Source: Tritonibacter scottomollicae (GTDB lineage Bacteria; Pseudomonadota; Alphaproteobacteria; Rhodobacterales; Rhodobacteraceae). From it: a stretch of 64,000 nucleotides of DNA. The DNA lies in contig NZ_PVUF01000010.1 in the NCBI RefSeq assembly GCF_003003215.1, positions 62,001 to 126,000 of the forward strand, written 5' to 3'. Every line of letters starts with the position of its first letter. The first letter of the stretch is position 1. Position numbers and translations under genes: made by a program. Shown here piece after piece: positions 37,063-39,326 of the stretch. The notes under the pieces are model-generated. The model did no database searches. It saw only the letters and a program-made list of their open reading frames with translations, and was not told where the DNA came from.

Positions 37063-37284
37063 ATGACTGCACTGAAGAAAATGGTAGACGTCGCACTGTG
37101 TGAAACCGGCGCATTTGCTGGTGAGAATGTTGGGCTCGTCAGCTCGACCTGCCTTGATGGCGCGCATGAGGGTGGTCATGTATCCCTTTACAGTTCCACA
37201 TGTATTTCTTCTGAGGTGACGGACATGCATGGCGGCGCCGCAACGCATATGGTGTCGTCGACCTGCCTCGAACAGATGAAGTAA
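37063..37284 (+). CDS. 73-residue peptide with three SSTC repeats
   Basis: I do not recognise a named function. The short acidic peptide has no signal sequence. After a Lys-containing N-terminus (MTALKKMVDVAL) come Cys13 and three SSTC motifs at residues 27-30, 44-47 and 65-68, in contexts VSSTCLDG, YSSTCISSE and VSSTCLEQ. His pairs precede the second and third repeats (H35/H39 and H56/H62). AGGAG lies 7 bases upstream. It is followed by a stem-loop, an unknown protein and a transporter. A repeated Ser-Ser-Thr-Cys core is what one expects of a modified-peptide precursor or a thiol/metal-binding peptide (inference). It may belong to a Rhodobacterales DUF family. Confidence 0.8.
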   Translation: MTALKKMVDVALCETGAFAGENVGLVSSTCLDGAHEGGHVSLYSSTCISSEVTDMHGGAATHMVSSTCLEQMK

Positions 37285-37298
37285 CCCCGGTGAGATAT

Positions 37299-37324
37299 CG
37301 TGATCCGGCCTGTGCTGGATCACG
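37299..37324 (+). promoter_or_regulatory. Stem-loop between the peptide gene and the next gene
   Basis: CGTGATCC (37299-37306) and GGATCACG (37317-37324) form a perfect 8-bp stem with a 10-base loop and no T-tract. It begins 14 bases after the peptide stop codon. It may stabilise the peptide mRNA or lower expression of the downstream genes. Confidence 0.6.
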
Positions 37325-37362
37325 AAACTCGACAGGTTTCTAATTCCGCGGAGGGGATGCCG

Positions 37363-38427
37363 ATGGGGCAGGTTTTATCATTTTCAAATGCCCGAGCGCA
37401 GAGAGGCAGTTCTGGAGTTCCAGGGTTGTTGGAAACCTTTGGCGCATTTCGAAAAGATCGCCTTGATGTATTGTGGCTCAAGGAAAATGCAGAGCTGCTC
37501 AATGTTTTAGAAACCACGGGTTGCAAAATATCATGCGGCGCATTGGAGCCTTTACTCCCATTTTACGAAGGGAGCCTGCGGCACCTCAATTTCTTCCGTC
37601 AGTATTACCGCTTTATCCTGTCGATCTGTCTCGACCTTGAGGATCTGGGCCTGCCGGGGGAGCGGGGCGAAGCGATGGCGGGCTGGATTGCCGACCGTGA
37701 TATCGCACGCAGTGAGTTGTCGGATCTGCAGCGGGGCGAGGCGCGGCGCTTGCTGGCGCGCCGGGGCGTCGATTTGCGCGGCGTGGAGGGGCTTGATGAC
37801 AGGTTGCGGGGCTTCATGCGCCAAAGCGCCTGTTTCGCGGTGCCAAACCGCAAGGCCGCCTACGAGCTGACACATGTGGTTTTCTATCTGACTGAATATG
37901 GCCGCGCGCCGATCCGTCTGGAGAGCGAAGAGCGCCGCAGCTTGTTGTTCGCTGGGCTGGTTGCCTTTCTGGATCAGGACGCGGATCTGCTCGCCGAGAT
38001 CTGCATCGCGCTGACCTTCTGCAACGAGGTACCGCCGCAGGATTGGTGCCGTTGGCTGGACCAGCAAGTCGGCAGCTTCACCTTGCGGTCTGCACAGGGG
38101 CGCGTCGGAAACGACGACTACCATCCCTATTTGATGTGCAATTGGTTTCAACTTCTGGTTGGACGCAGCGGATTTTCTGATGCAGACTGCAAAGGGTCAG
38201 TCGTTATCGAGGGGCAAGCGCGCCCCAGTGCGTTGCGGGGGGTGTCGATGGCTCTTTACACATTGTTGGATCAGGCCCCCGGAACCTGGGCCAGAATGCG
38301 TCGTCCATTGTTGCAGAGCCTGAGCACGGAGGATGGAGATCTGCTGTGCCGGGTCGAGGCCAGCACCCCCGTTTTTGAGCCCTTCTTCGAGGTATTTTCG
38401 CGCTCGGGCCAAGTTGGTCGCGCATGA
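37363..38427 (+). CDS. Unrecognised 354-residue protein of the SSTC peptide cassette
   Basis: No family with known function is recognised. The protein appears cytoplasmic and mainly helical, with unusually many Cys (for example TTGCKISCG, SICLDLED, QSACFAVP, EICIALTFCNE, DWCRW, YLMCNWF, DADCKG) and Trp/Tyr-rich stretches (DYHPYLMCNWFQLL). A central RRG/ERRS region is basic. The start is set at ATG 37363, 7 bases after GAGGG; GTG 37300 and ATG 37357 are in frame. The first 80 codons are more AT-rich than neighbouring genes. The stop overlaps the transporter start (ATGA), so the two are translationally coupled. It could modify or handle the upstream peptide (inference). Confidence 0.7.
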   Translation: MGQVLSFSNARAQRGSSGVPGLLETFGAFRKDRLDVLWLKENAELLNVLETTGCKISCGALEPLLPFYEGSLRHLNFFRQYYRFILSICLDLEDLGLPGERGEAMAGWIADRDIARSELSDLQRGEARRLLARRGVDLRGVEGLDDRLRGFMRQSACFAVPNRKAAYELTHVVFYLTEYGRAPIRLESEERRSLLFAGLVAFLDQDADLLAEICIALTFCNEVPPQDWCRWLDQQVGSFTLRSAQGRVGNDDYHPYLMCNWFQLLVGRSGFSDADCKGSVVIEGQARPSALRGVSMALYTLLDQAPGTWARMRRPLLQSLSTEDGDLLCRVEASTPVFEPFFEVFSRSGQVGRA

Positions 38428-39326
38428 ACCGTGTTGCCGCAGGGGTGATTGCAGTGCTGGTGTACACCGGCCTCATAGCAACGGCGGACGGGATCACCAA
38501 AATGATGGCGTCGGAGTTCGCGCCGGCGCAGCTGTTCGCGGTCTCCGGCCTATTGGTCGCGGCCTTTTGTCTTGGCGTAAATCACATACAAGGGCACCCG
38601 GAAGGGTTGAGTACGCGTTGCGTGAAGGCGATGATGCTGCGGTCAGTTGCGACGGTTCTGGCCTGCACGTCATTCTTTTTTGCCTTCCGATATTTGGCGC
38701 TTGCCGAGGTGTTTGTCTTCATCGCGTTGATGCCGCTTTTTGCAGCGCTGCTGTCGGGGCTGATCCTGAAGGAGCGGATCCGACCCGTGGTCTGGCTGGC
38801 GCTATGTCTCGGGGTGGTCGGTCTTTTGGTGATGCGACCCGCCGTGCAGATGGGCGGTGCTACCGGTTCGGCCTTGGCGCTGGCGGGCGTGGGTTTCGGA
38901 ACCCTGTCCATCATCATGGCGCGCTATATCAGTCGGTATGACAGCAATGTTCTGCCGCAGGTCTTCTATCCAAACCTGACCTTGGGGGTGGTGATGCTGT
39001 GTGTCTTGCCGTTCGTCTGGCGGCCGATGGCGGTGGCCGACTGGGGCTGGATCTGTACCTATGCTGTTGTTCTGTTCGGCGCGCGCTGGTTGCTGGTCTT
39101 GGCGCTGCGTCAGTTGCCAGCCTATACCGTCACGCCATTGCTCAATCTGCAATTCGTCTGGATGACATTGATCGGGGTGCTGGCCTTTGGTGAGCTGCCG
39201 GCGGTTTCAACCTGTCTGGGCATGGCCGTGGTTGCGGCCTCTGGCGTGTTCCTGGTGTGGGATCAGGCGCACACTCCGCCAATCAAAGCGGCCCGCGCCG
39301 TGGCGCTGGGGGGCGAGGGGGCATAG
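38424..39326 (+). CDS. EamA/DMT-family transporter of the SSTC peptide cassette
   Basis: A 300-residue drug/metabolite-type transporter with two EamA repeats of five helices each; typical stretches are FFFAFRYLALAEVFVFIALMPLFAALLSGLIL (key ALAEV...PLFAALL) and its second-half counterpart ALRQLPAYTVTPLLNLQFVWMTLIGVLAFGELP (key LPAYTVTPLLNLQ). EamA proteins carry amino acids, thiols and other small metabolites. Its ATG overlaps the stop of the preceding gene by four bases, so it belongs to the same operon as the SSTC peptide. A cysteine-like or peptide-derived substrate is only a guess. Confidence 0.88.
   Translation: MNRVAAGVIAVLVYTGLIATADGITKMMASEFAPAQLFAVSGLLVAAFCLGVNHIQGHPEGLSTRCVKAMMLRSVATVLACTSFFFAFRYLALAEVFVFIALMPLFAALLSGLILKERIRPVVWLALCLGVVGLLVMRPAVQMGGATGSALALAGVGFGTLSIIMARYISRYDSNVLPQVFYPNLTLGVVMLCVLPFVWRPMAVADWGWICTYAVVLFGARWLLVLALRQLPAYTVTPLLNLQFVWMTLIGVLAFGELPAVSTCLGMAVVAASGVFLVWDQAHTPPIKAARAVALGGEGA

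Follow-up and report, generated by a model that had tools for sequence, protein, structure and literature searches.

A putative multi-core RiPP cassette with a DUF6902 protein in Tritonibacter scottomollicae and related Rhodobacterales

In Tritonibacter scottomollicae, a gene for a short peptide carrying the word SSTC three times is followed by genes for a 354-residue protein and an EamA-type transporter, which raises the question of what the three genes produce together. The cassette was analysed within a window of 64,000 nucleotides (the whole stretch of DNA examined, to which all positions refer) and compared with related loci in other genomes. The reading favoured here, with a probability of about 0.6, is that the cassette is a multi-core RiPP system: the 354-residue protein would act on each core, with epimerisation as the most likely reaction, and the EamA protein is probably the exporter.

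The cassette and its repeat precursors

The three open reading frames that had been described from the letters alone were all recovered, including the ATGA overlap (38424-38427) that couples the second gene to the third (Table 1). The three SSTC words were likewise found at residues 27-30, 44-47 and 65-68 of the 73-residue peptide, and when this peptide was shuffled, any four-residue word occurred three times in 3 of 20,000 shuffles. All four core codons of the second unit differ synonymously from those of the first. No second copy of the peptide or the enzyme was found in the T. scottomollicae genome, and no gene of the cassette was identified as encoding a protease.

Table 1. Features of the cassette in the T. 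scottomollicae window.
Feature	Position	Strand	Details
Multi-core precursor gene	37063..37284	+	73 aa; AGGAG ribosome-binding site 5' of ATG; leader MTALKK...
Precursor unit 1, GENVGLV-SSTC	37120..37152	+	Core codons AGC TCG ACC TGC
Precursor unit 2, GGHVSLY-SSTC	37171..37203	+	Core codons AGT TCC ACA TGT
Precursor unit 3, GAATHMV-SSTC	37234..37266	+	Core codons TCG TCG ACC TGC
Hairpin between precursor and enzyme genes	37298..37325	+	Fold z -2.3; similar in 7/7 SSTC relatives
DUF6902 gene	37363..38427	+	354 aa; PF21843 E 1.2e-124, PF21836 E 3.5e-19; predicted alpha/alpha toroid
Enzyme-gene stretch with candidate active-site H171, D208, E212, D251, Y253, H254	37873..38124	+	Invariant in 81/81 DUF6902 proteins
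EamA/DMT-type transporter gene	38424..39326	+	300 aa; PF00892 E 1.7e-17; proposed exporter

One genome of each species was scanned, and 294 stretches encoding a relative were detected. The best 80 of these were analysed, all of them from Rhodobacterales or from unplaced alphaproteobacterial assemblies. A repeat peptide was encoded shortly upstream of the DUF6902 gene in every one of these 80 loci, so that all of them have the short encoded precursor beside a putative modifying-enzyme gene that is expected of a RiPP. An EamA gene was adjacent in 75 of the 80, and in the remaining five erpA was directly next. The conservation of the trio and the presence of repeats in the homologues, on which the sequence-only reading depended, were thus both found, the relatives having other core words and always keeping the repeats.

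The peptides of the best 80 of the 294 loci included altogether 604 units of the form G-x5-[F/V/Y/L/I] followed by a four-residue core, with 2-18 units per peptide. In its simplest form the part before the core reads G-x5-F, and more fully G-[DE]-x-[VT]-[EQ]-[ML]-F. Altogether 24 different modal core words were present among these loci, e.g. SSGS, TSWS, SSTC, TSGL, TSGS and TSSL, and the modal word of the locus itself was carried by 95.2% of the units, compared to 39.8 ± 0.8% when the cores were permuted between loci. The search pattern for the units constrained positions 0, 6 and 8 and left positions 7, 9 and 10 free; the almost constant Ser at the second position of the core is partly a product of this pattern.

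Most of the 75 peptides with an assigned start opened with the leader M-x-A-[LQ]-x-K, in its fuller form M-[TS]-A-[LQ]-[RK]-K. The peptides thus combine a conserved leader with a core under different constraint, also this as expected of a RiPP. The peptide terminated exactly on a core in 52 of the 75, and for those types this defines where the core ends on its C-terminal side. The three SSTC words were invariant in an alignment of eight close peptides; Cys13 and the His pairs, to which attention had also been drawn, are present in T. scottomollicae but were not kept in the aligned relatives. Among 20 genomes lacking the enzyme, no convincing orphan precursor was found with a profile that covers the SSTC type best, and NCBIfam, PHROGs and PADLOC had no family for either the peptide or DUF6902. 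In Shimia peptides (L091, L096, L051 and L063) the unit was often doubled (FTSGLVQMFTSGL), the two cores then lying only a few residues apart.

Also the stem-loop noted downstream of the peptide gene was confirmed. The intergenic stretch had a folding energy of -31.6 kcal/mol (z -2.3), and each of the seven closest relatives from the genome collection had a strong hairpin at the corresponding position (z -2.9 to -5.9). Across all the best 80 of the 294 loci the median z was only -0.8, and the hairpin is therefore not a family-wide feature, though strong in the SSTC clade. It is possibly an attenuator or an RNA-stability element.

The DUF6902 protein and its DUF6895 relatives

The 354-residue protein, previously thought unrecognised, belongs to the Pfam family DUF6902 (PF21843), and no unrelated known function emerged for it. 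Its description as Cys-rich holds for T. scottomollicae itself, where it has ten Cys, and not for the family: in the relatives the number ranges from 3 to 10 (median 5.5), and none of the columns invariant across 81 DUF6902 sequences is a Cys. The protein also passes the gathering score of DUF6895 (PF21836; 69.7 vs 23.8 bits, E 3.5e-19), and all 15 members of the first DUF6902 alignment matched both families (E ≤ 0.001). Since the best match is PF21843, we consider DUF6902 a sister family rather than a part of DUF6895. Homology between the two is distant (approximately 20% identity): hhalign of DUF6902 against three DUF6895 proteins gave E 4.5e-8 over residues 81-275, with the Pfam match covering residues 72-225.

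The residues Y167, H171, G180, D208, E212, D251, Y253 and H254 were invariant in the 81 DUF6902 proteins. The corresponding Y-x3-H-x8-G, D-x3-E and Y-H pattern was invariant also in five DUF6895 proteins, in which the spacing of H171, D208, E212, Y253 and H254 was matched by invariant residues.

The AlphaFold model of the DUF6902 protein (pLDDT 84, pTM 0.86) is nearly all-helical. It aligned best with 5bp8, at a VIA-align Z of 11.0 (rmsd 3.6 over 221 residues), a value below the safe level for helical proteins, and with similar toroids, which is suggestive of an alpha/alpha toroid. The DUF6895 model also resembles alpha/alpha toroids, and as this model is poor (pLDDT 53) its fold match gives weak support. 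A Foldseek search of the PDB with the DUF6902 model returned nothing at E ≤ 0.001, and a PDB sequence search with both profiles nothing credible.

Five DUF6895 genes from other groups each follow a small peptide gene, and three of the five linked peptides have two copies of an internal aromatic motif. These few examples support the view that the DUF6895/DUF6902 superfamily modifies peptides. The motifs are GPWFVL/GPWYIY, DWTFVSPNYVYKG and GYVFVWDKYVY, from the small genes L143:7440-7868, L144:6200-6682 and L153:4852-5259; a Pfam search recognised no family in these three peptides, which possibly represent further RiPP classes. A DUF6895 protein of approximately 900 residues (L152:2539-5247), whose gene lies behind a small peptide gene, also carries a fused APH-type phosphotransferase domain, which may hint at a kinase-linked RiPP.

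One member of DUF6895 is reported by Shi et al. (ACS Catal. 2026, doi 10.1021/acscatal.5c08590) to epimerise a lasso peptide, according to the title listed in PMC13352647, and in the open-access literature DUF6895 was found in this one reference list only. No mention of DUF6902 was found in the open-access literature, a description in a closed journal being possible, and neither was a description of the system found in the open-access literature on repeats and roseobacter RiPPs.

Proposed mechanism and alternative readings

The order of precursor, modifier and exporter suggested by the sequence-only reading is strongly supported by the repeat peptides in all of the best 80 of the 294 loci, by the EamA gene in 75 of these and by core words that are alike within a locus and vary between loci; that DUF6902 acts on the peptide chemically is our inference. 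In the proposed mechanism, DUF6902 would recognise one or both of two elements, the short leader M-[TS]-A-[LQ]-[RK]-K and the segment G-[DE]-x-[VT]-[EQ]-[ML]-F of each unit, and would modify every four-residue core of the array. The reaction would most likely epimerise one residue of the core, perhaps the almost constant Ser at its second position, with the conserved His, Asp and Glu providing acid/base catalysis inside the predicted toroid. Host proteases could then free one short modified peptide in several copies, and the EamA protein would export it. Against this role, the cargo of EamA proteins consists mostly of small metabolites, and five of the 80 loci have no adjacent EamA gene. Epimerisation is preferred because of the link to DUF6895 and because acid/base residues, the only ones that this reaction requires, are invariant. 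Points against the reading are that the epimerase assignment depends on distant homology and on the title of the epimerase paper as listed in PMC13352647, and that the cassette has no identified protease gene.

The main rival to epimerisation, possible though rather unlikely, is that DUF6902 serves the same multi-core RiPP with some other Ser/Thr-directed reaction, such as dehydration/elimination, cyclisation or group transfer. The cores are rich in Ser and Thr, and the alpha/alpha toroid is also the fold of terpene cyclases and prenyltransferases. The APH-type domain fused to the L152 protein points in the same direction, as APH-like kinases participate in the Ser/Thr dehydration of some RiPPs. 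However, the roseobacter cassette has no kinase gene, thioether rings would need Cys, which is absent from most cores, and epimerisation is the sole DUF6895 activity found, in the reference list of PMC13352647. Toroids also serve as binders, e.g. in transcobalamin, and DUF6902 could therefore be a chaperone or a binding protein taking an unmodified, active peptide to the transporter or to its target. This is distinctly improbable, since the polar residues H171, D208, E212, D251, Y253 and H254, which are of the type used in catalysis, are invariant and most of them common to DUF6895.

A thiol or metal buffer, earlier regarded as an equally open reading and here taken as the peptide working together with an accessory protein and a transporter, is now hardly credible. 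The SSTC clade does keep its three Cys, but the modal core lacks Cys in 66 of the best 80 of the 294 loci with the architecture unchanged, 27 of the 75 peptides with an assigned start have no Cys anywhere, and Cys13 and the His pairs are unconserved. The Cys-free homologues thus argue against a general thiol or metal function. A metallothionein-like peptide or thiol buffer was likewise rejected as a known type, there being no conserved Cys or His ligands across the family.

The favoured multi-core RiPP with an epimerising DUF6902 was also compared to known systems. A lanthipeptide of the LanC type was rejected because of the same Cys-free modal cores (66 of the best 80 of 294 loci) and the absence of an invariant enzyme Cys, and a lasso peptide because no cyclase, leader-peptidase or other lasso gene was recognised between xthA (PF03372) and erpA (PF01521)/dgt (PF01966) or in the housekeeping flanks. 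With the DUF6895 lasso-peptide epimerase, known here from its entry in PMC13352647, the cassette shares distant homology and the invariant Y/H/G/D/E/YH residues, whereas it differs in its tandem short-core precursor, its separate Pfam family and the transporter that is usually next to it. MslH, the epimerase of the lasso peptide MS-271, uses two His/Asp pairs; it binds Ca(II) and its fold is calcineurin-like (PMC10406935), in contrast to the predicted nearly all-helical DUF6902. The two would work alike should DUF6902 epimerise peptides by acid/base catalysis. Several core copies per precursor are known from microviridins (PMC5934393) and from fungal Kex2-processed repeat peptides (PMC7329392). 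These resemble the present system in being multi-core and have other enzymes, whereas the cores here have four residues, occur in up to 18 copies and are uniform within a locus and variable between lineages.

Selection, co-diversification and the chromosomal site

Between the copies, core positions showed 5-9% nonsynonymous and 36-54% synonymous codon changes, compared to 56-77% nonsynonymous changes in the spacer before the unit, where the copies differed mostly by replacement. As the codon changes in the core are mostly silent, the copies are held alike by selection at the protein level and not by recent duplication alone. Placed on the enzyme tree, the 24 words required 26 changes compared to a mean of 52.6 with shuffled labels, which means that the word tracks enzyme lineages; some words, e.g. 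SSGS, recur at several places of the tree. Over 69 loci, the divergence of the enzyme was correlated with that of the EamA protein when the flanking genes were taken into account (partial r 0.73, against at most 0.20 in permutations). The enzyme varied much more than the genes around it, with a median identity of 54% compared to 81% for xthA and 83% for erpA, and in 115 locus pairs xthA was at least 88% alike yet the enzymes at most 55%.

The interval between xthA and erpA houses the cassette in most of the best 80 of the 294 loci, and two congeners without the cassette showed the empty site, with 69 and 71 bp between the two genes. At the order level a DUF6902 match was present in 81 of 293 genomes, all belonging to the family of T. 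scottomollicae. No relative was found in the plasmid or viral contig sets, and there is thus no sign of carriage by either.

A word that is uniform within arrays and differs between lineages points to a type of ribosomally made, modified peptide that is apparently not described before, and this pattern, kept at one fixed site, would be consistent with a part in strain recognition or in competition among strains. A more specific idea, speculative and unlikely, is that a stereochemically edited tetrapeptide is cut in many copies from the array and exported as a lineage-specific password for kin recognition or as a pheromone, in a bacterial layout like that of yeast alpha-factor; the word would then change in all units of the array together, with enzyme and transporter co-diversifying at the fixed site. 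A word held by selection and yet lineage-specific raises the question of its reader. The RiPP class is apparently undescribed and occurs in an abundant marine group, the roseobacters; DUF6902 gains a testable function and a link to a recently reported epimerase family, and the 24 core words form a natural library of ready-made multi-copy substrates. Should DUF6902 edit stereochemistry with no radical-SAM enzyme involved, it would offer a simple means of introducing D-residues into peptides.

Two minor observations concern the loci themselves. In L041, L044, L047, L050 and L085, part of the TSWS clade, erpA is separated from dgt by approximately 1.5 to 2.5 kb of additional DNA. At G560:C14:85013-86068 the DUF6902 matches are in five pieces, suggesting either a decayed copy or errors of sequencing.
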